Both the position numbers and the translations under genes were made by a program. From positions 1 through 64,000 of the forward strand of contig SVSP01000012.1 of assembly GCA_015064255.1 (NCBI GenBank): a stretch of 64,000 nucleotides of DNA, in the 5' to 3' direction. Source of the DNA: Oscillospiraceae bacterium. GTDB taxonomy: Bacteria > Bacillota > Clostridia > Oscillospirales > CAG-272. Positions 3,904-16,302 of this stretch are shown here, in pieces; position 1 is the first letter of the stretch, and the number at the start of each line of letters is the position of its first letter. The notes under the pieces were generated by a model that worked only from the letters and a program-made list of their open reading frames with translations, did not search any database and was not told the origin of the DNA.

Positions 3904-5112
3904 ATGCTAAAAATAAATGAAAAAGCAAGAATTGCAATTTACATAGGCACGTTATGCTCCGTGTCCTATCTTGCGGTATATTTTGCGCGAAACATTTTGA
4001 GCGCCGTAACACCTCAGATGACAGAGATCGGCGGATTTTCCGAATCTTACATAGGAAAGCTTGAATCTGCTTATCTCATTTGCTACGCTTTCGGGCAACT
4101 GATAAACGGAGCTATCGGCGACAAGATAAAAGCAAAGTATATGATATCTGCGGGACTCTTTCTCTCGGGTATAACAAGCTTTATATTCACTTTCATAAGC
4201 GGTATTTCTTACGCCGCAATCGCCGTTTACGGTCTTACCGGCTTCTTTTTGTCTATGATCTACGGGCCTATGACCAAAGTTGTCGCTGAAAATACCGAGC
4301 CGATATACGCGCCGCGCTGCAGTCTCGGCTACACTTTCGCTTCGTTTTTCGGAACTCCCCTTGCCGGAGTTGCCGCGACCTATATGATCTGGTACGACGT
4401 TTTCAAGCTCAGCGGTACTCTACTTGCCGTAATGGCTATTCTCTGCTTTGTATTTTTCCTCTATTTTGAGCGTATAGGAATCGTAAAATACGGGCAATAC
4501 AAGGCTGAAAAGGTCAAAAACGGAAGCATAAATGTACTTATAAAGCATCATATAATAAAATTTTCCTTTATCGCGATGCTGACGGGAATCGTGCGCACTA
4601 CCGTAATGTTTTGGTTTCCGACGTATATCTCACAGTACCTCGATTTTCCGCACGAAGAAGCTACTATGATCTTTACTGTAGCAAGCTTTATAATATCTAC
4701 AACCGCTTTTATCGCGATATTCATTTATGAACGGCTCAAGCGGAATATGGATCTGACTATACTTATAATGTTCTCTTCTTCCACGATATTCTTTATAGCC
4801 GTATATTTTCTGAAAGCCCCCGTGGTAAACATTATTCTTATGGTTCTTGCCATTATGTCGGCAAGCGCAGCGGCAACGATGCTTTACAGCAGATACTGCC
4901 CGAGCTTGCGCGACACGGGAATGGTATCGGGCGCCACCGGATTTCTTGATTTCCTCAGCTATACCGCCGCTTCAGCGACAAGCACATTTTTCGCCGAATC
5001 GGTTTCGACTATCGGTTGGGGCAATCTTATCCTAATTTGGGCGGCACTTATGTTTTTCGGTATTATCGTTGCACTTCCCTACGGTGCATTTTTCAAGAAA
5101 GCATCTGAATAA
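3904..5112 (+). CDS. MFS transporter (resembles the OPA/sugar-phosphate permease subgroup)
   Basis: About 12 hydrophobic segments, MFS-like layout; RBS-like AGAGGTA upstream. Confidence 0.8.
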   Translation: MLKINEKARIAIYIGTLCSVSYLAVYFARNILSAVTPQMTEIGGFSESYIGKLESAYLICYAFGQLINGAIGDKIKAKYMISAGLFLSGITSFIFTFISGISYAAIAVYGLTGFFLSMIYGPMTKVVAENTEPIYAPRCSLGYTFASFFGTPLAGVAATYMIWYDVFKLSGTLLAVMAILCFVFFLYFERIGIVKYGQYKAEKVKNGSINVLIKHHIIKFSFIAMLTGIVRTTVMFWFPTYISQYLDFPHEEATMIFTVASFIISTTAFIAIFIYERLKRNMDLTILIMFSSSTIFFIAVYFLKAPVVNIILMVLAIMSASAAATMLYSRYCPSLRDTGMVSGATGFLDFLSYTAASATSTFFAESVSTIGWGNLILIWAALMFFGIIVALPYGAFFKKASE

Positions 5113-5180: not shown

Positions 5181-5798
5181 TCAGAAAGTATAGTTTTCGC
5201 CGTAAATTGTAGCAAGAGCGCCCTTGGCTTTAAGTGCTTCGTTATCCTCGTGTGCTATAAGCCACTTATTCTTTGCTATGATAAGCGGATCGTTAGGCTT
5301 TTTATCAAGTACTGTATTTGTTCCTACGGGAAGAACAACCACGCATCTAAATCCGTCCTCACTGCACTGTATCGGGCAGTAATGAAGGGTCGTTGCATAA
5401 ACCTCAACAGCTTCGCCTTTACAAACCTTAAACGCCTTTACCTTTGCGGAATCGTATCTGTTATCCGCTTCAACGTCACGAAGATCTCCAAGGAGAAGAA
5501 TAACGTCTGTAACCGCGATATTTACTTCAGAGCATTTATGCCATTCAAGAGCATTAAGCTTATTGTTATGTCCAAAGCAAAATCCCATCTGCACAGGAAG
5601 CTGACCGAAATGCTCGTCCTGAATAGGCTGCTTTATTGCAAGACCTTCAAAATCATCAAATGAAGCAACGTATGCAGTACCTTCCTTTGGAAGCGCGACC
5701 TTTTCACCGACACTTACGATTTCGGATGTGTCGATATCGATAACGCGACCGAACTGTTTAAATTCGCTGTCTGTAACTCTGTAAATTTTCATAACCAA
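5181..5798 (-). CDS. DUF4867 family protein (cupin-like)
   Basis: MKIYRVTDSEFKQFGRVID... and VLPVGTNTVLDKKPNDPLIIAKNKWLIAHED; last gene of the catabolic operon. Confidence 0.7.
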   Translation of the reverse strand: MVMKIYRVTDSEFKQFGRVIDIDTSEIVSVGEKVALPKEGTAYVASFDDFEGLAIKQPIQDEHFGQLPVQMGFCFGHNNKLNALEWHKCSEVNIAVTDVILLLGDLRDVEADNRYDSAKVKAFKVCKGEAVEVYATTLHYCPIQCSEDGFRCVVVLPVGTNTVLDKKPNDPLIIAKNKWLIAHEDNEALKAKGALATIYGENYTF

Positions 5799-5803
5799 TC
5801 TCC

Positions 5804-7216
5804 TTATATTTTATTTGAATTTTCTATGATTTCCAGAACTTTTTTTGCATCTCCGACTATACCGTAATCGGCATAATCGAATATCGGTGCATTTTTATCA
5901 TTATTTATTGCAATAATCGTTCCGGAATTTTTCATACCTGCAATATGATGAACTGCGCCCGAAATTCCTACCGCCACGTAAACGCTCGGACTTACGTTTC
6001 TGCCCGTAAGACCTATCTGCATCGGATAGTCTGCCATTTCGCTATCCACGGCGCCGCGCGAAGCAACAAGCTCTGCGCCTGTCTTTTCCGCAAAGCTCTT
6101 CACACTCTCCATAGCATCTCTCGCCCCCTTGCCGACAGCTACCATAACATCTGAAGAATTATCATCCGTTGTTCTGACCGTTGCCATCTGCGGAAGCGTT
6201 TTGCAAGCTATTTTGGCAATTATATTACCCGAAAACGCGGGACGGTACATAAACATTTTTTCTCCATCGGTTTCAAGTAATGTGCAATCGGCACACAGAC
6301 CCGTTTGAAGCATAACGGCAACTCTCGCCGCTGCCTGCTTACTCCAAGGCGTGCTGTCCCACAAGACAACGGGCGGTCGTTCACGCTTTATCATATCGGC
6401 AATAATTTTGGGATCGAGCTTTTCGATGACTTTTATATCATCGCTAACGCTTTCAGCATAATCGTACGGTTTATCACCGATTATCCAGACATTTTTAAGT
6501 TTTTTAGTGCTTTGCATAGTCCGGCTGATTCTTTTTTTGCCGTCAGCTACCGCTTTTTCTATAAGAGACGGGAGTTCCTCCGGCGAAACGAAAGTGCATT
6601 TGCGTTTATCGGAATTATTTTCGAACGATCTTACAACCTGTGTCGGCGAGCCTTTAAGACCACAGCGCGAAATATCCGCACCTATATCGGAAGCGGTCCA
6701 CACAGTCACGTTCCCGACTCTTGAGCGTATGCTCGGAAGACGCAGGTTGTTTATACGCTCGATAGTTAAAAGCGCGGGATAAGTTGCTTTTTTCTCTTCT
6801 CCCGTACGGTCAAGACAGGATATTTCTCTTTCATCTGCCGATATTATTTTCATAACGCCCGTTATAAGCGTCATCTGCATAAATTCGGAAATTCCCGGTC
6901 CGACCTGTCCCGTATCTCCGTCAACTGTCTGCCTGCCGCAAAAAACAAGCTGTGGCTTTAATTTTTCAAGAGCCTTTGAAAGCGTGTATGATGTTGCAAG
7001 AGTATCTGCACCCGCAAACGCTCTGTCGCAAAGCAGATACGCTTCTTTCGCCCCGAGTCTTGTAAGCGACAGAAGCATCGCCTTACTTTTTTCGGGTGCC
7101 ATAGAGAGAAGTATTACCTCGCTTCCCGATATCCGAAGCGCCGCTTCATATGCACAGGCATCAAAGGGATTCAGTTCGCCGTCAGCGCGCTGTTTCACGC
7201 ATACAACAATTCTCAT
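5804..7216 (-). CDS. Fused electron transfer flavoprotein (EtfB domain followed by EtfA-type FAD domain)
   Basis: N-term MRIVVCVKQ... CGRQTVDGDTGQVGPGISEFM (EtfB); C-term LVASRGAVDSEMADYPMQIGLTGRNVSPSVYVAVGISGAVHHIAGMKNSGTIIAINND (EtfA). Confidence 0.85.
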   Translation of the reverse strand: MRIVVCVKQRADGELNPFDACAYEAALRISGSEVILLSMAPEKSKAMLLSLTRLGAKEAYLLCDRAFAGADTLATSYTLSKALEKLKPQLVFCGRQTVDGDTGQVGPGISEFMQMTLITGVMKIISADEREISCLDRTGEEKKATYPALLTIERINNLRLPSIRSRVGNVTVWTASDIGADISRCGLKGSPTQVVRSFENNSDKRKCTFVSPEELPSLIEKAVADGKKRISRTMQSTKKLKNVWIIGDKPYDYAESVSDDIKVIEKLDPKIIADMIKRERPPVVLWDSTPWSKQAAARVAVMLQTGLCADCTLLETDGEKMFMYRPAFSGNIIAKIACKTLPQMATVRTTDDNSSDVMVAVGKGARDAMESVKSFAEKTGAELVASRGAVDSEMADYPMQIGLTGRNVSPSVYVAVGISGAVHHIAGMKNSGTIIAINNDKNAPIFDYADYGIVGDAKKVLEIIENSNKI

Positions 7217-8688
7217 TGATTTCTCTCCCTGTATATAGGTGCAAGCGCATCGTGCACGCGTACGTATTCTTCAAAAAGCTTTTCGTATTTCTCGGTATTT
7301 TCCTTTATCGGCTTCACAGAGGATTTCACCTTTATACATTTTTCGACAGCATCTTCGGGTGTTTTGAACACGCCTACTGCAAGTCCTGCAAGCATCGCGG
7401 AGCCGAGCGAAGAATCGCTGCTCACCGTAACATTCAGCTCAATATCAAGGCAGTCGGCAACGATCTGCTGCCAGAGTCTGCTTTTTGCACCGCCGCCTAT
7501 AAGAGTCGCGCGCTTTGCACAGTTTATTCCAAGCTCCTCGAGCTTCATTTTTGAATGACGAAGAGAATACGCAACACCTTCAAGAACACTTCTTGTAAAA
7601 TGAGCTTTTGTATGCGTCGCACGTATTCCGATAAAACTGCCGCAAAGCTCTGGGTCGGCATACGGTGTAAGTTCTCCGTTAATATACGGATGATAAATGA
7701 GACCTTCGCTTCCCACCGATATTTCCTCTGCCCGTTCGTCAAGCTCTCTGTAATCACCGCCAAAGGTATCGCGATACCATCTAAGCGATGATGCCGCCGC
7801 TTTTGTAGCAGATCCGGGATACCAGAGTCCTTCCACGATGTGCGAGTAATTTACCACGTCGCGATCGGGGCAAGGCTTATCCGTTATGACGCATATACGC
7901 CCTGCCGTAGCAAGCTTTACGGTCGTATCACCGGATCTTACGGCACCCGATGCAAAAACCTCCATAACGGTATCGGTCGTACCGCATATCACGGGTGTTC
8001 CTGCTTTAAGACCTGTAAGAGCTTCTGCTGTCTGAGTAACGCTTCCAACAACGTCTGTTGCGTGGCAGAGCATCGGAAGCACCGACAAATCTATCCCGAC
8101 TATATCGCAAATCTCCTTCGACCATTTGTTTTCTTTCATATCAAGGAGCATACTTCCCTCGGCGTCTATATAATCTGTGCAGTACGTACCCGTGAGAAAA
8201 TAGCGGATATAGTCCTTTTCAAAGAAAATATGCTTTATTTTGTCAAAAGCCTCGCTGTTATTTTCTTTTACCCAAAGTATTTGCGGGAGAGTCCATATTG
8301 TATCCGGTTTATGGAAGGTTTTCTCAAATATCAAGCTTCCGTATTCTTCGCGAAGCTTTGCCGCCTGAAGCCTTGAACGGCTGTCCGTCCAATGTATAGC
8401 GGGAAAAAGCACTTTGAAATCCTCGTCGCACGCAACCCACGTATGCGTTGCCGAGTCTATCGCCACGGCAAGAATGTCACTGCTGTCTATCTTACTTTTT
8501 TCGATAAGCGCAAGTGTATTTTCGCAAAGAGCTTTACACCAATCGTCGGGATTCTGTTCGCAAAATCCGAGTTTTGGGTACAAGGTAGGATATTCGACCG
8601 AGTTTTCAGCAATTATATTACCGTTTGTATCTATCAAAGTTGATTTTGACGAACCGCCGCCAAAATCAATACCCAAGAGATATTTCAT
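7213..8688 (-). CDS. FGGY-family carbohydrate kinase (xylulokinase-like)
   Basis: MKYLLGIDFGGGSSKSTLID; AVAIDSATHTWV; GGGAKSRLWQQIVADCLD. Confidence 0.85.
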   Translation of the reverse strand: MKYLLGIDFGGGSSKSTLIDTNGNIIAENSVEYPTLYPKLGFCEQNPDDWCKALCENTLALIEKSKIDSSDILAVAIDSATHTWVACDEDFKVLFPAIHWTDSRSRLQAAKLREEYGSLIFEKTFHKPDTIWTLPQILWVKENNSEAFDKIKHIFFEKDYIRYFLTGTYCTDYIDAEGSMLLDMKENKWSKEICDIVGIDLSVLPMLCHATDVVGSVTQTAEALTGLKAGTPVICGTTDTVMEVFASGAVRSGDTTVKLATAGRICVITDKPCPDRDVVNYSHIVEGLWYPGSATKAAASSLRWYRDTFGGDYRELDERAEEISVGSEGLIYHPYINGELTPYADPELCGSFIGIRATHTKAHFTRSVLEGVAYSLRHSKMKLEELGINCAKRATLIGGGAKSRLWQQIVADCLDIELNVTVSSDSSLGSAMLAGLAVGVFKTPEDAVEKCIKVKSSVKPIKENTEKYEKLFEEYVRVHDALAPIYRERNQ

Positions 8689-8707
8689 AAAGAACCTCTT
8701 TTTTATT

Positions 8708-9502
8708 TTATCTTTTTTCTATCCAAGCGTGCTCAGGATCGCTGCTTCTGTTAAATCCCTGATAATCGCCTGCCATAAGCCAAAGGAAATAGGTCTTATA
8801 TCCCGGTGTGGAAACTGTTGTATGATAGCCATAAGGGAATTCTACCAGCTCGTCGTTCTTGACTCTGTAAGCCTCGTCAAGCGATCCGTCTGAGGTATAG
8901 AGGCACTGAACTGCAAAGCCCTGCTTCGGATCGAAAAGGAAGTAGTATATTTCCTCTGCGATACATTCCTTAGGCATATTATCCTCGTCGTGCTTATGCG
9001 GAGGGAATCCTGCCCAGTTACCCTCTGTGCAATACGCTTCGCCTATTGTGAGTATCTTTGCATTGGAATTTCCGTCTATTATAAAGCTTGTTTCGCGCTG
9101 ATAAGGCTGTTCACCGAGGAGCTTCAGTACTACGTGATCTTCTCTGAGCACCTGCGGCTCTGTCTTTTCCTTTACAGGTGTTGCACAAACCGCTATCTTT
9201 ATATGGTCGATAGCTTCGATCGCGAGCTTCTGTTCTCTTGGCATATAGAAGCTTTCTGCTTTACGGTTTTCAAAAACGGTCATTCTGTTACCGATATTTT
9301 CCCATTTTTCGCCGTTCACGTAAACGTTGCAGTGTCCTTCGAGCATAATGAAGGCTGTTTCTTTATCTTCTGTGTAAAAATCAAGCTTTTGATCCTTTTC
9401 AAGCTCAATAATACCGAACTCAAGCTTTTTGAGAGTACACTCTCCTATTTTGCATATCGGAGTATAGCCGTTTGCAGGTTTATATGCTTTCTTATAATTC
9501 AT
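8708..9502 (-). CDS. iolB: 5-deoxy-glucuronate isomerase (IolB)
   Basis: NWAGFPPHKHDEDNMPKECIAEEIYYFLFDPKQGFAVQCLYT...GYHTTVSTPGYKTYFLWLMAG is IolB-like. Confidence 0.8.
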   Translation of the reverse strand: MNYKKAYKPANGYTPICKIGECTLKKLEFGIIELEKDQKLDFYTEDKETAFIMLEGHCNVYVNGEKWENIGNRMTVFENRKAESFYMPREQKLAIEAIDHIKIAVCATPVKEKTEPQVLREDHVVLKLLGEQPYQRETSFIIDGNSNAKILTIGEAYCTEGNWAGFPPHKHDEDNMPKECIAEEIYYFLFDPKQGFAVQCLYTSDGSLDEAYRVKNDELVEFPYGYHTTVSTPGYKTYFLWLMAGDYQGFNRSSDPEHAWIEKR

Positions 9503-10406
9503 AACCCTTCTCCTTTAAGAATTTTTTTACTGTTTCAAGCGTCGGAACACTCTCACGCGCACCGATTCCCGTACATTTTATTGCCGAAACGGCACTTGCA
9601 AATATGCAGCATTTCTCAAAGTCAAAGCCGTAAACACGTCCTGCCGCAAAAGCACCGTGAAAAACGTCGCCCGAACCGTTAGTATCTATTGCATTTACCT
9701 TAAACGCGGGATAGTGCCAAAACTTTTTACCGTCGTAATACAGACCGCCCTCTTTGCCCTGTGTTATCACAAGTGCGGCAGGGTGATACATATTCATCAG
9801 CTTTTCAGCGGCTTCCTCCGCATTTTGAGAATTTGTCTTTTTCAGAGCAAATTCTTCTGACGGGATCATAATATCGGTAAGCTTCAGAAGTCTTTCGACA
9901 CCTTCGTAAAGTCCGCCGCAATCGTAAAGGACATTCGTGCCGTTTTCCTTTGCCACAAGGCAGGCTTCTTCCGCACCGTCTATTTCGTTTCCGTCTATCA
10001 TAAGTATTTCCGCATCTGCGACCGCTTTTTTCTGACTTTCGTTAAGACTGAGTGGTGGAAGATCACCCTTATCGAAAACGCAGGTACGCGATGCACTTTT
10101 TGCCGAAAGCCATATTACCGAGGTAAATGAACGGTATCCGCTTTCAAAAGTTATATTTTTTGTATCTACGCCGTATTTTTCGAAATCTTCTGCCAAAAAT
10201 TTTCCGCCGTTATCATCAGACAGTACGCCGACAAATCCCGCAGGTATTCCGAGTTTGCGCGCCGCAACAATTCCTGTTGCTGTTGGACCGCCGCCCGCAA
10301 CCTTTGTCGCGCTTGCACGCATTTTCGTATCTTCGTCAGGATACTCGGGGAGTGTTATGAGAGTATCCATAACACAAGCCCCTATACCTACAATTTTATT
10401 CATCAT
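9492..10406 (-). CDS. PfkB-family carbohydrate kinase (ribokinase / sulfofructose-kinase-like)
   Basis: AGGGPTATGIVAARKLG; PAFKVNAIDTNGSGDVFHGAFAAG PfkB signature. Confidence 0.85.
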   Translation of the reverse strand: MMNKIVGIGACVMDTLITLPEYPDEDTKMRASATKVAGGGPTATGIVAARKLGIPAGFVGVLSDDNGGKFLAEDFEKYGVDTKNITFESGYRSFTSVIWLSAKSASRTCVFDKGDLPPLSLNESQKKAVADAEILMIDGNEIDGAEEACLVAKENGTNVLYDCGGLYEGVERLLKLTDIMIPSEEFALKKTNSQNAEEAAEKLMNMYHPAALVITQGKEGGLYYDGKKFWHYPAFKVNAIDTNGSGDVFHGAFAAGRVYGFDFEKCCIFASAVSAIKCTGIGARESVPTLETVKKFLKEKGYEL

Positions 10407-11245
10407 ATCGATTTACCGTTTGCACCTGTAAGGTATATCTTTTCAAGTGCGAGTTTTTTAACGCATTCTATCGGATTCTTCATAAAGAGATCTATTCCTA
10501 TGCTCTTTGCGGGATTTGCATATTCTGCGCCCACACCTTCGATAAAAGCACAGCATACGTCTGTACCGATATTCATCTTTCTCACGCCTGCTTTGATTGC
10601 CGCCTTGACCTGATCTTCGGGAATTCCCGATCCGCCATGCAAAACAAGCGGAAGACCTTTAACAGCCTCGTGTATAGCACCCACTCTGTCAATATCAAGC
10701 TTCGGAGGCTTTTTATAATGTCCGTGTGCGTTTCCTATAAGAACGGCAAGACAGGATACGCCCGTAAGCTTCACAAATTCGCCTGCCTCATCTGGAGATG
10801 TGAACTCATCCATTACTTCATCGTTTACGCTTCCGATATGACCGAGCTCGCCTTCAACAGGCACGCCCACATCGTGACACATTTCGACTATTTTCTTTGT
10901 CAAAGCTACATTTTCGTCAAAGGGATATGCCGAGCCGTCTATCATTATACCTGTTGCACCGTAGCGGAGTGTCTTTATAACCTCTTTTTCCGAGGGACCG
11001 TGATCGAGATGGAAACATACGGGGACACTTGCCTGCTTTGCCGCCGCAAGAATGATCGGAGCAAGATAATATCCGCTGCCACCGTTTATAAGACGGGGAT
11101 ATACCTGCAAAATTACGGGAGCTTTCGCTTCTTCTGCCGCCTCAATAACACCCATTACTGTTTCCATATTATAAACGTTAAATGCAGGAACACAAAACTT
11201 TCCTTTATCAGCTACCGAAAGTACATAATCGAGATTTACTAACAT
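10403..11245 (-). CDS. Class II fructose-bisphosphate aldolase family protein
   Basis: MLVNLDYVLSVADKGKFCVPAFNVYNMETVMGVIEAAEE; VCFHLDHGPS; VLHGGSGIPEDQVKAAIKAGVRKMNIGTD; start set at MLVNLD. Confidence 0.85.
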   Translation of the reverse strand: MLVNLDYVLSVADKGKFCVPAFNVYNMETVMGVIEAAEEAKAPVILQVYPRLINGGSGYYLAPIILAAAKQASVPVCFHLDHGPSEKEVIKTLRYGATGIMIDGSAYPFDENVALTKKIVEMCHDVGVPVEGELGHIGSVNDEVMDEFTSPDEAGEFVKLTGVSCLAVLIGNAHGHYKKPPKLDIDRVGAIHEAVKGLPLVLHGGSGIPEDQVKAAIKAGVRKMNIGTDVCCAFIEGVGAEYANPAKSIGIDLFMKNPIECVKKLALEKIYLTGANGKSI

Positions 11246-11277
11246 TTTTATGACCATTCCTTTCTTTAGGTTCTGAA

Positions 11278-11345
11278 GTTTTGTGCGCTTTGACTTGGCA
11301 AAAAGCCACAAAACCTCGGTCTGAAAAATGACCCATTTTTCAGAC
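11278..11345 (-). repeat. Intercistronic tandem-hairpin element
   Basis: GTCTGAAAAATG-ACC-CATTTTTCAGAC (11319-11345) next to GTTTTGTG...CACAAAAC (11278-11285 / 11307-11314). Confidence 0.55.
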
Positions 11346-11364
11346 TTTACTCTTCTTGATTTGA

Positions 11365-12441
11365 TCAGCCCAAGATAAGCTCTTCAACAGAAATTATTTC
11401 CACGTCCTCTGCTACAGCCTTGAGGCTTACGTATTCGGACACGGATGCCGTTATTATCGCGTCTGCCTTAACGCCCTTCGCGTTATTTATACGGTCAAGC
11501 GCAACTCCGTTTATAACCTTAGGCATCCACTGTGCCATAAGGATATTACCTGCCCACATAGTATCCTTGCCGTGAACGAGCATTTCACCGAGATCGCAGA
11601 ATGCACTCGCTATTTTTCTTCCCGCATCTGTTTCGGCAAGGTCGCGCGCAAGCTGGAAAGGATCCTGGAATACTGCCTTTTTGCCTGTATTTACTGCATT
11701 TATTTTACCCGATTCAACGAGTTCAGCCACAAACGCAGTATAAGTCTTTACATCGCACAAAAGCTCTACGTTCCATTCCTTATACTCACGCTTAAATACC
11801 TTTGCGTCCTGCGGATCGTATGCAACTACCGTTTTAAACTGATTTATCTGCTTTGCACAGGCAATCATCTGCTGTTTTGTTTCGTCAGCCGCGCTTATAA
11901 GATATTCGAGCTGCTGTCCCGAAGCAAGCTCGTCTTCGAGAACCGTGAATTTTACGCCTGCTTTTTCAAGTGCTTTAATAGCCTTTACCGCACAGTCCGG
12001 TGCAATATATCTTGCATCCACGCCGAGGAAAAGAAGTGTATCTGTTAATTCGCTATGCTCTGCTATCTTATTTTTAAGTTCTGCATCAAGCTCTGTCTTA
12101 CCGTAGGCATTGCCGCAGTCGAGGCAGTTGTCAAGAAGAACGTTTATGTACTCGGGAAGCTTTCCTTCAAGTGCCGCGTCAAGACGCGCTTCCTTAATAA
12201 ACATAACGGGATCCCAGCCTGTTACGCATTCTTTTGTGCACGCACCGCAGCAAGCACATTCGTAAATATTGTCAATAACCTCTGATATATCGTAAACGCC
12301 TCTGTTTACAAGCGAAAGTCCGAGCGCACGCGCACGTGCATTGTTTCGCTCAAGTCCCGTTGTGTTTCCTATGGGACAAATATGTCTGCACATCCAACAG
12401 AATCGGCAAGAATCAACGTGCTTTTTACTTGTTTCGTTCAT
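11365..12441 (-). CDS. (Fe-S)-binding protein, GlcF/HdrD-like
   Basis: CRFCWMCRHICP and CACCGACTKEC [4Fe-4S] motifs. Confidence 0.75.
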   Translation of the reverse strand: MNETSKKHVDSCRFCWMCRHICPIGNTTGLERNNARARALGLSLVNRGVYDISEVIDNIYECACCGACTKECVTGWDPVMFIKEARLDAALEGKLPEYINVLLDNCLDCGNAYGKTELDAELKNKIAEHSELTDTLLFLGVDARYIAPDCAVKAIKALEKAGVKFTVLEDELASGQQLEYLISAADETKQQMIACAKQINQFKTVVAYDPQDAKVFKREYKEWNVELLCDVKTYTAFVAELVESGKINAVNTGKKAVFQDPFQLARDLAETDAGRKIASAFCDLGEMLVHGKDTMWAGNILMAQWMPKVINGVALDRINNAKGVKADAIITASVSEYVSLKAVAEDVEIISVEELILG

Positions 12442-12456
12442 TATGCTTTCCTCCTT

Positions 12457-13887
12457 TTATATACCGAGCTTAAACGGATTCATAATTCCGTTGGGGTCAA
12501 GCTCACGCTTCAAAGCTTCAAACACCTGCATCGCGGGTCCATACTGCTCTTTCATAAGTCTTCCGAGCTTGATTCCGACACCGTGGTGATCGTTTACTAC
12601 GCCGCCGTGTTCAATAGCCGTGCGTACTCCGCAAGTCCATATCTGCTGATGCAGACGGAGTGCCTCTACCGGATCTTCGGGAACGTCCTTGCCGTCAACG
12701 ATGAAACGGTCGTATATCATCGAACCCCATTCATACCAATGCGAGAAGTGTGCAATAAATTTCGCCTGCGGGAAGTTTGTTTCTATTGCGTTCTTCATCG
12801 CCCAGTATATCTCTTCGATCTTTCCGTAAGGAGCGATCGTATCCATTGTACCGAACATTTGAGGAAGGTCCATCATATGACCGGGATAGAAGAAGGTTAT
12901 CTTTTCATTCCACCACTTTTCGCCGTATTCGCTTCCCATATCCTCTGCACCGTACTTTGTAAAGGTATCGAGAAGGATCTTTTCTTCGACCTCTACCATT
13001 TCCTTTACGCCCTCGTATGCGATATTCATAAATGCACCTTCGCGTTCTACGCCAACGATCTTCTTTATAAGAGATGCAGTTTCAGCGGGGTCGTAAAGAC
13101 GCATAACAGAGGGCTTGAACTTCTGAAGAAGTTCTCTTGAAGCCTTGAATGCCGCACTCATATCCTTGAACAAAAATCCGCGGAAGCGTCTTTCCTCAGG
13201 CTGATCGAAAATACGTATCTGTGCCTTGGTTATAACGCCGAGAGTTCCTTCCGAGCCTATGAATATCTGGTTAAGGTCTGGGCCTGCCGCGTGCTTGGGA
13301 GCCGCCGAGGTGTTTATAATATCTCCGTTGGGAAGAACGACCTCCATCTGAAGCACCATATCGTCGATCTTACCGTATTTTGTCGAAACGACACCTATAC
13401 CCCGGTGTGCAAGAAATCCGCCGACTGTCGAGCAGGTGAGCGACGAGGGATAGTGCATCGTAGCCTTACCTACCTCGTTTGCCGCCCATTCGATGTGCTT
13501 ATATATAGCACCCGTTCCGCATTCTATATACATAGCTTCCGTATTTACTTCGTATATCTTATTCATACGTTTCGTATCGAGCACGATACCGCCGCAAACC
13601 GGAATAGCCCCGCCCTGCGTACCGCCGCCGCCACCCCAAGTGGTAACGGGAAGCTTATAATAATTAGCTATTTTAAGTACCTTAGAGGTTTCCTTTGCAT
13701 CCTTCGGAGCAACTATAAAGTCGGCTTCCGGCATAATTCTTCCTCTGTCAGCCCACATACGGGAAAGCCAGTAATAGTCAACGCTGTGAGTTACCTTATC
13801 TATCTCTCGTGTTGAACAGTTTTCGATACCCACCGCATCTTCAAGTTCTGTAAGTATCATCGCTTGTAAAAAGTCATTTCTCTGCAT
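12457..13887 (-). CDS. FAD-binding oxidoreductase, GlcD-like
   Basis: ADFIVAPKDAKETSKVLKIANYYKLPVTTWGGGGGTQGG; IGSEGTLGVITKAQIRIF; NDHHGVGIKLGRLM; start set at MQRNDF. Confidence 0.85.
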   Translation of the reverse strand: MQRNDFLQAMILTELEDAVGIENCSTREIDKVTHSVDYYWLSRMWADRGRIMPEADFIVAPKDAKETSKVLKIANYYKLPVTTWGGGGGTQGGAIPVCGGIVLDTKRMNKIYEVNTEAMYIECGTGAIYKHIEWAANEVGKATMHYPSSLTCSTVGGFLAHRGIGVVSTKYGKIDDMVLQMEVVLPNGDIINTSAAPKHAAGPDLNQIFIGSEGTLGVITKAQIRIFDQPEERRFRGFLFKDMSAAFKASRELLQKFKPSVMRLYDPAETASLIKKIVGVEREGAFMNIAYEGVKEMVEVEEKILLDTFTKYGAEDMGSEYGEKWWNEKITFFYPGHMMDLPQMFGTMDTIAPYGKIEEIYWAMKNAIETNFPQAKFIAHFSHWYEWGSMIYDRFIVDGKDVPEDPVEALRLHQQIWTCGVRTAIEHGGVVNDHHGVGIKLGRLMKEQYGPAMQVFEALKRELDPNGIMNPFKLGI

Positions 13888-13909
13888 TTTATTTTCTCCT
13901 TCAGTAATT

Positions 13910-15313
13910 TTAGTCAAGTGTTTTATCTATTGCCAAATTCGGACAGTATTTTGTAAATTCACGTATTTCTTTTACATAGTTGCCCTCTATCTCAACGAAA
14001 TGATGGATATACGGACCGTCAAGCAGTCTGTCTTCCCATTTCTGAAGATCATCAAACTCTGCCCAGATATACGTACCGTGAGTCTGCGGTCCGGGAACGG
14101 TCTTGCAGTTACCCGCAAGAACCATATAGTTTCCGTTTTCCTGATCTATTCTTGCGATAGTGTAATTTCCGTCCTTTGCTCTGAACCATTCACGCTGATT
14201 TACAAGGCGCGCACACGAATCGGGAGCCTTTATCGAAAGCGGGAAAGGTCCGCAGTGCCAGAGAAGCTCTGCATTTCTGTTTTCGGGATGGCGCACTGTA
14301 AATTCTCCGAGGAAAGGTCTGCCTTTACCGAGCGATGCCGATTCAAGAAGTACCATTGTCATAGCGCAGTGCATATCGCTTTCACAGCTGATTATATATC
14401 CGAGGTCGTTAAGCACCGAGTAAACCGCGCAAGGCGCAAGACCGTCGAACATAACGGGGGTTGCCGTCCAACACTCTGCCGATATAACGTCGAGCTTAAA
14501 TTCTTCGAAAATAGCGATATATGTAACAACAAGGCAAGCCATTCTCTCGAGATACTGCGGTGTAAGCTCGTCCATTTTATAATTATCCTTGAAGAACTGA
14601 ACGTACTTTGCAATTTTTTCCTTTTTTTCTTCCATATTTTTAAGGAAGCGGTCCTGAAGGATCGCAAGGTTTATCGGAACGATACGAACTCCGAATTTCT
14701 GCATCAGCTCGCCTTCATTCCATATAACCGAGAAGAAGGGGGCCGGACGTGTGCCGACCTGACCGATACGCAGACCTGTGAAATTCTTTACCATACAGGC
14801 AACACGGATAAAGCTGTCAAATGCATCCTTAAATTCATCAGACTCTATTCTGCAGCAAGGAATATGCGAAAAAGGTATTCCGTATCTTTGGAATTGACGC
14901 GAAACGCCGAAAAGTCCGCACTGTGAGTCGGTAGGACGCATACCGTCAACGTAATATTCATCATCAAGAGGTGCCCAAAGCACACACGGTTTTCCTATTG
15001 CCTTTGCAAGATCGGCTGCGGCTTCTTCGTTTCCGAAGTTACAGTTAATTATCATTACAGCATCTACTTTTTCATTCTTGAAGCGTTCTACCGTTGCGCA
15101 AACCGAATCATCGTCAAAAATGAGGTCTTTGCATCCGAGTCCCTTCGTATCAACAAAAGAAAGATTTTCACTTGCGAAATTTTCTTCGATGTACTTTACG
15201 AATCTTTCTCCTCTTGCCTCGGCAGATGACCAGGTAAGAAACGTTTTCGCGGGGCGGTCTGTGGTATTACGTCGCATCGGCACGATACCCAATTTTATTT
15301 TATGATCGAGCAT
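13910..15313 (-). CDS. L-fucose/L-arabinose isomerase family protein
   Basis: KLGIVPMRRNTTDRPAKTFLTWSSAEARGERF; EFKLDVISAECWTATP; CESDMHCAMTMVLLE; RBS GGAGG before MLDHK. Confidence 0.7.
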   Translation of the reverse strand: MLDHKIKLGIVPMRRNTTDRPAKTFLTWSSAEARGERFVKYIEENFASENLSFVDTKGLGCKDLIFDDDSVCATVERFKNEKVDAVMIINCNFGNEEAAADLAKAIGKPCVLWAPLDDEYYVDGMRPTDSQCGLFGVSRQFQRYGIPFSHIPCCRIESDEFKDAFDSFIRVACMVKNFTGLRIGQVGTRPAPFFSVIWNEGELMQKFGVRIVPINLAILQDRFLKNMEEKKEKIAKYVQFFKDNYKMDELTPQYLERMACLVVTYIAIFEEFKLDVISAECWTATPVMFDGLAPCAVYSVLNDLGYIISCESDMHCAMTMVLLESASLGKGRPFLGEFTVRHPENRNAELLWHCGPFPLSIKAPDSCARLVNQREWFRAKDGNYTIARIDQENGNYMVLAGNCKTVPGPQTHGTYIWAEFDDLQKWEDRLLDGPYIHHFVEIEGNYVKEIREFTKYCPNLAIDKTLD

Positions 15314-15343
15314 AAATTTTACCTCCAATAATTATTCACTTAT

Positions 15344-15371
15344 ATTATAATATTGCTTATATTTTTTTCAA
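15344..15371 (-). promoter_or_regulatory. Promoter of the isomerase-led catabolic operon
   Basis: On - strand TTGAAA - 16 nt - TATAAT upstream of GGAGG and ATG. Confidence 0.6.
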
Positions 15372-15477: not shown

Positions 15478-16302
15478 ATGAAAATAATCCCATTTGAAGA
15501 GCTGTATCACTCACAGTTCGTAATAAGCGAGCCTTTTTCCAAGGTTCAAAACTGGTATTCACGAGGCAACATTTATTCATCTATCGGTCGTCCGAAGCCG
15601 TCGCACACTCTTCTGTGGTTCAAATCCTGCAGCGGAAAAATAACCGATAGCAAAGGAAATATACTGAATGTACAGCAAAATCAGCTCACTTATACATCAA
15701 AAGACATTGAATACACCGTGGATTTTTTCGATACCGCACCCGATCAGACCGACTGCATCGTAATACATTTTCAAATGACCGATATTTTCGGAAACGATAT
15801 TGCGCCAACTCTTATACCAGAATTATGTATGAAAAGCGTGAGCGTTTCAACAGGAATTGCTTTTGAAAAGATTGCCGAAGAATTTAGAAAAAACGTCGTT
15901 TGTATTCCCGAAGCCTGTTCGGTCATCTACAAAATACTTGCAGACATATGCAAAAGCAGAAGAAACGATACTGCCGATTTCAAATTCAACTGTATAAAAC
16001 CGGGAATAGATCTACTTGAAAACGATACTGATATGTCCATAAAAGAGCTTTCATCCATCTGCGGCGTAAGCGAATGTTACTTCAGACGTCTTTTCAAGGA
16101 ATACAGCGGAGAGTCGCCTATTGATTTCAGGCAGAAGCACAGGATCGAGAAAGCCAAGCAGTTACTTCTTTCCGATATGCTGACAATCGGCGAGATATCG
16201 CAGGAGCTTCATTTTTCCGATATTTATCATTTCAGCAAAACATTTAAAAACATAGTCGGTATCTCTCCGAGCCGTTTTATCGAAGAGAATCGCAGAGGAT
16301 GA
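15478..16302 (+). CDS. AraC family transcriptional regulator
   Basis: C-terminal double HTH: IKELSSICGVSECYFRRLFKEYSGESPIDFRQKHRIEKAKQLLL...FSDIYHFSKTFKNIVGISPSRF. Confidence 0.9.
   Translation: MKIIPFEELYHSQFVISEPFSKVQNWYSRGNIYSSIGRPKPSHTLLWFKSCSGKITDSKGNILNVQQNQLTYTSKDIEYTVDFFDTAPDQTDCIVIHFQMTDIFGNDIAPTLIPELCMKSVSVSTGIAFEKIAEEFRKNVVCIPEACSVIYKILADICKSRRNDTADFKFNCIKPGIDLLENDTDMSIKELSSICGVSECYFRRLFKEYSGESPIDFRQKHRIEKAKQLLLSDMLTIGEISQELHFSDIYHFSKTFKNIVGISPSRFIEENRRG

Follow-up and report, generated by a model that had tools for sequence, protein, structure and literature searches.

The window analysed here (the whole 64,000-nucleotide stretch of contig SVSP01000012.1, assembly GCA_015064255.1, of an Oscillospiraceae bacterium) contains an operon that raises one question: which pathway joins two putative sugar isomerases, two sugar kinases and an aldolase to a flavin oxidase and an electron-transfer flavoprotein (ETF)? 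The operon comprises nine consecutive minus-strand genes (window 5181-15313), and their families, assigned by Pfam and NCBIfam profile searches, are those named in the original prediction. They encode an aldose-ketose isomerase (ISO), an FAD-dependent oxidase or dehydrogenase (FAD), an Fe-S protein (FES), a class II aldolase (ALD), a PfkB-family kinase, an IolB-like cupin, an FGGY kinase, a fused EtfBA and a DUF4867 cupin. Judged from sequence, the operon looks like a real, conserved sugar-degrading unit, apparently undescribed in the open literature. The oxidase is its most interesting part. Tentatively, and at somewhat less than even probability, an undescribed ETF-coupled sugar (or sugar acid) dehydrogenase of the AGPS type and a new IolB-like isomerase subfamily would initiate a new anaerobic pathway in herbivore-gut Clostridia.

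Conservation and distribution of the operon

The FAD protein was scanned against GTDB genomes, which gave 245 relatives, and the best 80 loci were kept. These best 80 share 85-92% identity with the window protein, and all are from metagenome-assembled genomes or uncultured assemblies. Wherever an animal is named in their titles, the host is a herbivore (deer, goat, sheep, cattle, buffalo, yak, or rabbit). The FES gene follows FAD in nearly all loci. Dozens of genomes, where the locus is long enough, show the same partners in much the same order, and the gene set is thus not a chance assembly. Median identities to the window proteins are 89% for FAD (inflated, since the loci were chosen by FAD identity), 83% for IolB, 70% for ISO, 66% each for PfkB, FGGY and ALD, 61% for FES, 54% for ETF, and 49% for DUF4867. 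The picture is similar in 392 genomes of the class Clostridia, where FAD matches fall at 78-90%, one at 54%, and then at about 34%. About 7% of these sampled genomes, from many families, carry the FAD gene. Taking both searches together, the protein keeps 82-92% identity in many families of Clostridia. ISO is present in 16 of 20 FAD-bearing genomes, and several genomes whose operon lacks ISO encode it elsewhere.

The original prediction regarded the nine genes as one undescribed functional unit and proposed their co-occurrence across Clostridia as a check. The near-intact set does recur, mostly in herbivore-gut Clostridia, and the partners are co-conserved. The open-access literature, a scope that subscription papers and preprints lie outside, yielded no publication on these genes as a set. 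At the level of sequence, both the enzyme classes and their co-occurrence are well supported.

The FAD-FeS-ETF oxidase

The FAD protein (476 aa, window 12457-13887) belongs to the AGPS/GlcD superfamily and comprises the FAD_binding_4 and FAD-oxidase_C domains. FES (358 aa, 11365-12441) is a predicted 4Fe-4S dicluster electron carrier similar to GlpC and GlcF (Fer4_8, 30.3 bits, cut-off 27). EtfBA (470 aa, 5804-7216) has the ETF beta (PF01012) and ETF alpha (PF00766) domains in a single open reading frame, as had been stated for this locus. The closest PDB sequence to FAD is alkyl-dihydroxyacetone phosphate (alkyl-DHAP) synthase, AGPS (2uuu, E 2.8e-42), ahead of D-lactate dehydrogenase and LctD, and its motifs HFSHWYEWG...NDHHGVG resemble those of AGPS. 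NDHHGVG stands where D-lactate dehydrogenase has GEHGIG, and the His-His-Glu metal site with its EHG motif is absent from FAD. These His-His-Glu residues are presumably the metal site of the D-2-hydroxyacid dehydrogenases (LctD, D2HGDH, and GlcD).

Oxidative cleavage of an ether was also considered as a role for this AGPS-like protein. Loci L114 and L176 encode FAD relatives of 54-57% identity together with an Fe-S protein, and in L114 a gene that by eye resembles Tm-1 (UPF0261) comes next. A second FAD oxidoreductase, of the PF12831 type, is inserted in some operons (L023:10582-11823, L025:4420-5661, L203:6471-7682, and L175:15005-16231).

Isomerases, kinases and aldolase

ISO (467 aa, 13910-15313) has no Pfam match and a single weak NCBIfam match to SftI, the sulfoquinovose (SQ) isomerase (100 bits, cut-off 700). 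Its AlphaFold model has a mean confidence (pLDDT) of 91.9, and the best PDB fold is L-arabinose isomerase (7chl, TM 0.83), with fucose isomerases next. E280, E337, H353, and H437/H438 are invariant in 28 homologues and, by analogy with AraA, are candidate metal ligands. The AraA-type fold of the predicted structure and these residues agree with the earlier assignment of an aldose/ketose isomerase, here placed in the AraA/FucI superfamily.

PfkB (PF00294, 304 aa, 9492-10406) scores higher as a ribokinase (140.5 bits) than as IolC (104.9 bits), and its best PDB match is sulfofructose (SF) kinase (7ag6, 1e-34). Lys28 is invariant in 68 of 68 homologues and is shared with Lys27 of SF kinase, while Val and Asn occupy the places where N109 and R138 would fall. 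We take K27, N109, and R138 to be the sulfonate residues of SF kinase.

ALD (280 aa, 10403-11245; PF01116, 297 bits) has YdjI as its best PDB match (6ofu, 1.4e-56). It lacks DPR(K/Y), the distal-phosphate motif of the bisphosphate aldolases compared. At least 93% of the 70 operon homologues share an arginine (R52, alignment numbering), which probably lies close to where the distal end of the substrate sits. The FGGY ketose kinase (491 aa, 7213-8688) is xylulokinase-like, with 400.5 bits for XylB (cut-off 380) and far fewer (152) for glycerol kinase. The DUF4867 cupin (5181-5792; PF16161, 246.5 bits) belongs to the SqvB/SftX family, for which a ring-opening or mutarotase role is putative (PMC11968277, PMC9594981). 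DUF4867 and aldose epimerase interchange in relatives of the operon, which parallels the mutarotase/DUF4867 interchange known in sulfo-EMP2 (PMC9594981).

The IolB-like cupin (264 aa, 8708-9502) is a KduI/IolB-family protein and scores 226.8 bits on TIGR04378 (cut-off 205). This cut-off is reached in 22 of 246 Clostridia genomes; 20 of them have the FAD gene and the other two are G030 and G117. An IolB-family protein is thus found in 20/21 FAD carriers versus 2/225 other genomes (p=3.9e-26, a value that overstates independence because the genomes are related). G030 and G117 possess genuine iol operons, in which iolD and iolE occur together with Gfo/Idh genes (gene names by eye), and their IolBs score 343 and 333 on the same model. 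The cupin metal ligands are kept in 18/18 aligned sequences of the operon type. The canonical C-terminal motif YLNVMAGP..W(K/R)F, present in 2qjv and in the IolBs of iol operons L132 and L133, is replaced by LW(L/I)MAG...(Q/R)GF (LWLMAGDYQGF in the window protein). The label 5-deoxy-glucuronate isomerase is doubtful for the operon protein on this comparison. Loss of the motif alone is not decisive, since the IolB-like protein of an iolD/iolE-type operon also lacks it (L166:7187-7978, LWVIR for LNVMAG). That protein is divergent, falls below the TIGR04378 cut-off, and represents a further IolB subfamily. The other KduI/IolB-family match of the window genome (contig C33 of G000, locus L002) is KduI-like (558 aa) and precedes a KduD-like short-chain dehydrogenase/reductase (SDR); both are ordinary uronate genes.

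The genes have been compared with the late steps of myo-inositol breakdown (IolB-IolC-IolJ), and iolG, iolE, iolD, and iolA were said to be absent. Neither iolD (best match 225.5 bits, cut-off 715) nor iolE (45.6 bits, cut-off 290) is present in the genome, which is 94.5% complete; the best iolD match is an IlvB-like (acetolactate-synthase-like) gene followed by an IlvN-like gene. iolG and iolA are absent from the operon, the genome-wide search having covered iolD and iolE. The analogy to IolB-IolC-IolJ is not supported: the IolB motif is missing, PfkB is nearer to ribokinase and SF kinase, and ALD is nearest to YdjI. The part of the earlier claim that stands is that enzyme classes for both an ETF-coupled oxidation and an aldolase cleavage are present.

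Arrangement of the modules in relatives

Two Clostridia genomes (L125 and L126) have a separate operon PfkB-ISO-ALD-DUF4867 without FAD, IolB, or FGGY, and this upper module adjoins an aldehyde dehydrogenase (ALDH), glycerate 2-kinase, and an enolase paralogue. Genome G504, outside the class Clostridia, has the order FAD-FES-ALD-GldA-TRAP(PQM)-TIM barrel-IolB-FGGY in a locus without ISO, PfkB, and DUF4867. Its ALD-like gene (38%) lies between FES and GldA, the TIM-barrel protein is an epimerase, and the GldA-like protein is glycerol-dehydrogenase-like. The order in G403 is NagA-Gfo/Idh-NagB-TIM barrel-FAD-FES-ALD-PfkB-IolB-FGGY-FAD oxidoreductase. These layouts suggest that ISO pairs with PfkB and IolB with FGGY, with the aldolase downstream of both. 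IolB, PfkB, and the aldolase are therefore not clearly a natural trio, because where the modules of relatives come apart, IolB stays beside FGGY and the AraA-like isomerase beside PfkB. On this view the operon would fall into two isomerase-kinase pairs, ISO-PfkB (with DUF4867) and IolB-like-FGGY, besides a single YdjI-like aldolase and a single FAD-FeS-ETF dehydrogenase.

The complete gene sets of L125:281-11828 and L126:1-12545 are LDH2, an aldolase of the 2-keto-3-deoxy-6-phosphogluconate type, SDR, aldo-keto reductase, glycerate 2-kinase, the enolase paralogue, ALDH, PfkB, ISO, ALD, and DUF4867. The enolase paralogue scores 276.6 bits (cut-off 300), and the operon is possibly a second undescribed route, ending in phosphoenolpyruvate. 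ISO also occurs in L124:1643-16184, with FGGY, two OPA-type transporters of the major facilitator superfamily (MFS), a FucI-like protein, an FSA-type transaldolase, an M20-like peptidase, and a GH3-like protein, next to NagA/NagB. The operon has an insertion at L130:3134-4831 and L054:16130-17812, namely a SIS protein of 560-565 aa that is akin to GKRP (by eye, MurQ-like) and is accompanied by NagB-like and either NagA or N-acetylglucosamine 2-epimerase genes.

Proposed pathway

Homology and co-occurrence show which enzyme classes are present, that there is one aldolase, and that the oxidase goes with the IolB-like protein; on this basis a pathway can be proposed with reserve, as possible though short of probable. 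It would have two inlets that converge on one DHAP-releasing aldolase, and the oxidase would precede the IolB-like/FGGY pair and probably act on a sugar acid or polyol. In the first inlet, ISO would turn an aldose, its ring opened by DUF4867 or aldose epimerase, into a ketose, which PfkB would phosphorylate to the ketose-1-phosphate. In the second inlet, FAD-FeS-EtfBA would first oxidise the sugar acid or polyol and pass electrons through the ETF, presumably in a NAD- or ferredoxin-linked manner. The IolB-like cupin would then isomerise the oxidised product to a ketose, and FGGY would phosphorylate it. The YdjI-like ALD would cleave the ketose-1-phosphate(s) to DHAP and an unphosphorylated short aldehyde. 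We infer the order of steps, the place of the oxidase among them, the meeting of both inlets at the aldolase, and a substrate that ends in an acid group (uronate/aldonate class). The two inlets are supported because ISO-PfkB-ALD-DUF4867 stand apart in L125/L126 and IolB-FGGY accompany FAD-FES in G504. ALD without the distal-phosphate motif, the co-occurrence of IolB with FAD, and the frequent location of ISO elsewhere when the operon lacks it also support them.

The acid end is suggested by the nearest characterised relatives of ISO (SftI), PfkB (SF kinase), ALD (YdjI), and IolB, which are enzymes for sugars with a terminal sulfonate or carboxylate. Sugars with a terminal acid group are the substrates of YdjI and IolB. 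The TRAP solute receptor of G504 resembles receptors for sialic acid and other acids. Several loci have uronate genes as neighbours: L198 has uxaC and uxaB with a UxaA-like gene, L024, L042, and L061 have uxaC, and L024, L061, L068, L070, and L121 have a kdgK-like gene.

Several points weigh against this proposal. The oxidase may be non-redox like AGPS, an enzyme with a lipid substrate that acts on a DHAP skeleton, but such a role is less favoured because Fe-S and ETF genes accompany FAD. Operons L016 and L026 lack ALD and PfkB locally, and no close ALD or ISO is found in the genome of L016. FGGY is the sole kinase in the G504 locus, where the pathway would have to work with a single inlet. 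A beta-galactosidase-like GH2 gene lies 10-12 bp from ISO (L200 and L202) or right after IolB (L073), and NagA/NagB lie inside the operons of other relatives; these neighbours favour neutral or amino sugars. In the IolB-like protein the basic residues of the canonical motif are gone, and an acidic substrate is thereby not favoured for its step.

The substrate clues conflict, as uronate genes, beta-galactosidases, NagA/NagB, and a TRAP transporter each occur in different relatives. Among 102 flanking proteins no family is dominant as a dedicated transporter or hydrolase. That NagA/NagB take the place of ISO was considered from their anticorrelation in operon loci (p=6e-4, optimistic because the table contains one genome more than once, as well as L117, a locus of the glycerol type), and this idea is weakened by ISO encoded elsewhere in four of those genomes.

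If the proposed oxidase reaction is true, anaerobes have a further route to oxidise sugars through the ETF, and DUF4867 gains a context. It would also define an IolB-like subfamily that exceeds the cut-off of the 5-deoxy-glucuronate isomerase model, yet possibly has another function. In reach, the oxidase covers the Clostridia fraction and the herbivore hosts of the 80 loci given above.

Alternative explanations

A rather unlikely alternative, though the best of those weighed, is that an aldohexose passes through ISO, PfkB, and ALD to give DHAP and glyceraldehyde (or tartronate semialdehyde), and that the IolB-like protein, FGGY, and FAD-FeS-ETF process this C3 fragment (and perhaps glycerol) to triose phosphate. 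The ALDH, glycerate 2-kinase, and enolase paralogue of L125/L126 would be a C3 exit, G504 has its glycerol-dehydrogenase-like gene, and AGPS acts on the DHAP skeleton. FAD relatives at about 31-34% identity also adjoin glycerol-kinase-like FGGY and GlpA-like genes (L115, L116, L117, and L179; names by eye). However, the FGGY kinase of the window scores as xylulokinase rather than glycerol kinase, and the G504 locus has neither ISO nor PfkB.

Use of a beta-galactoside is improbable. Here GH2 would release D-galactose, ISO would convert it to D-tagatose, PfkB would form tagatose-1-phosphate, and ALD would yield DHAP and glyceraldehyde, while the FAD, IolB, and FGGY genes would serve the aglycone or the C3 fragment. 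AraA-fold enzymes can take D-galactose, and the GH2 proteins, also found near ISO in L062, have GalA as best model (731-769 bits, cut-off 900) and beta-galactosidases as best PDB matches. However, GH2 occurs in only about five loci, and galactokinase is over its cut-off in 15/21 FAD-bearing genomes, commoner than in other genomes (p=0.002), though not in that of the window. As galactokinase is encoded by most carriers, the operon is not explained by lack of the Leloir pathway.

Sulfoglycolysis of the Embden-Meyerhof-Parnas (EMP) type, by SQ isomerase, SF kinase, SF-1-phosphate aldolase, and DUF4867, is very improbable, although SftI is the sole family match of ISO, SF kinase is the best PDB match of PfkB, and PF01116 aldolase and DUF4867 occur together in sulfo-EMP2 (PMC9594981). 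SQ is weak as a substrate: the SftI score is far below its cut-off, two of the three SF kinase residues are not kept, only the lysine being retained, and the genome has only a marginal, partial GH31 match (28 bits) as sulfoquinovosidase, GH188 not having been searched. The operon has no sulfolactaldehyde reductase or dehydrogenase, and IolB, FGGY, and FAD would be left unexplained.

An iol-type pathway that ends in IolB-IolC-IolJ with malonate semialdehyde and DHAP is the most improbable, for although the IolB-like protein passes the TIGR04378 cut-off, the L166 protein likewise lacks the motif, and Gfo/Idh and TIM-barrel genes lie near a few relatives (L011, L129, and L175), the absence of iolD and iolE from the genome, the lost IolB motif, and a kinase and aldolase nearer to other families make it unlikely.

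Promoter and adjacent genes

The nine genes are co-directional and tightly spaced, as predicted. With start codons revised to 15313 (ISO), 13887 (FAD), 11245 (ALD), and 5792 (DUF4867), intergenic gaps are -11 to +22 bp once starts are set by Shine-Dalgarno-like sequences, which precede most of them; the exception is 119 bp between FES and ALD. A 13-pair stem-loop (11318-11346, flagged on the plus strand) lies in this gap; read on the operon strand it lacks a T-tail, and it may therefore serve in internal processing or attenuation. The predicted sigma-70-like promoter TTGAAA-16-TATAAT (15344-15371, minus strand) was found again as the best site of the region (11/12 consensus), in which 25 such sites occur versus 21.2 (sd 5.1) in shuffles and are thus not enriched.

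The divergent AraC-family regulator is present at 15478-16302 (plus strand; Pfam/NCBIfam), and many relatives have an RpiR gene in its place. It is correct that the operon contains no transporter, though an MFS gene (3904-5112, plus strand) converges on it and ends 68 bp away. Its membership in the pathway is uncertain; the nearest NCBIfam model, PgtP (TIGR00881), matches weakly (80.7 bits, cut-off 407.75), and no other fetched locus has a homologue of this gene.

Comparison with known systems

The Escherichia coli ydj cluster shares a PfkB kinase (YdjH) and a YdjI-type class II aldolase with the operon, and to our knowledge has no isomerase, IolB, FAD, or ETF genes. The myo-inositol IolB-IolC-IolJ set likewise places an IolB-family protein next to a PfkB kinase and a class II aldolase, but the window genome differs in the iol genes and family affinities described above. 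AGPS is the closest solved sequence to FAD and shares HxSHxY-like and HHG motifs with it; we know of no Fe-S or ETF partners of AGPS. The electron-confurcating lactate dehydrogenase LctBCD and the glycolate oxidase GlcDEF also combine a GlcD-superfamily FAD subunit with an Fe-S protein and/or ETF, whereas the FAD subunit here is nearest to AGPS, lacks the His/Glu metal motif of D-2-hydroxyacid dehydrogenases, and stands in a sugar operon. By sequence, the operon has the upper-module layout of sulfo-EMP2 sulfoglycolysis without the other features of that pathway (PMC9594981, PMC11968277). Both have a FucI/AraA-fold isomerase, interchange of DUF4867 and aldose epimerase, a sugar kinase, and a PF01116 aldolase. 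When compared to sulfo-EMP2 (SqvD, SqvB/DUF4867, SqiK, and SqiA), the operon lacks a detected sulfoquinovosidase or sulfolactaldehyde enzyme, has only a PF00294 PfkB kinase in place of the PF00365 SqiK, and carries the additional FAD-FeS-ETF, IolB-like, and FGGY genes.

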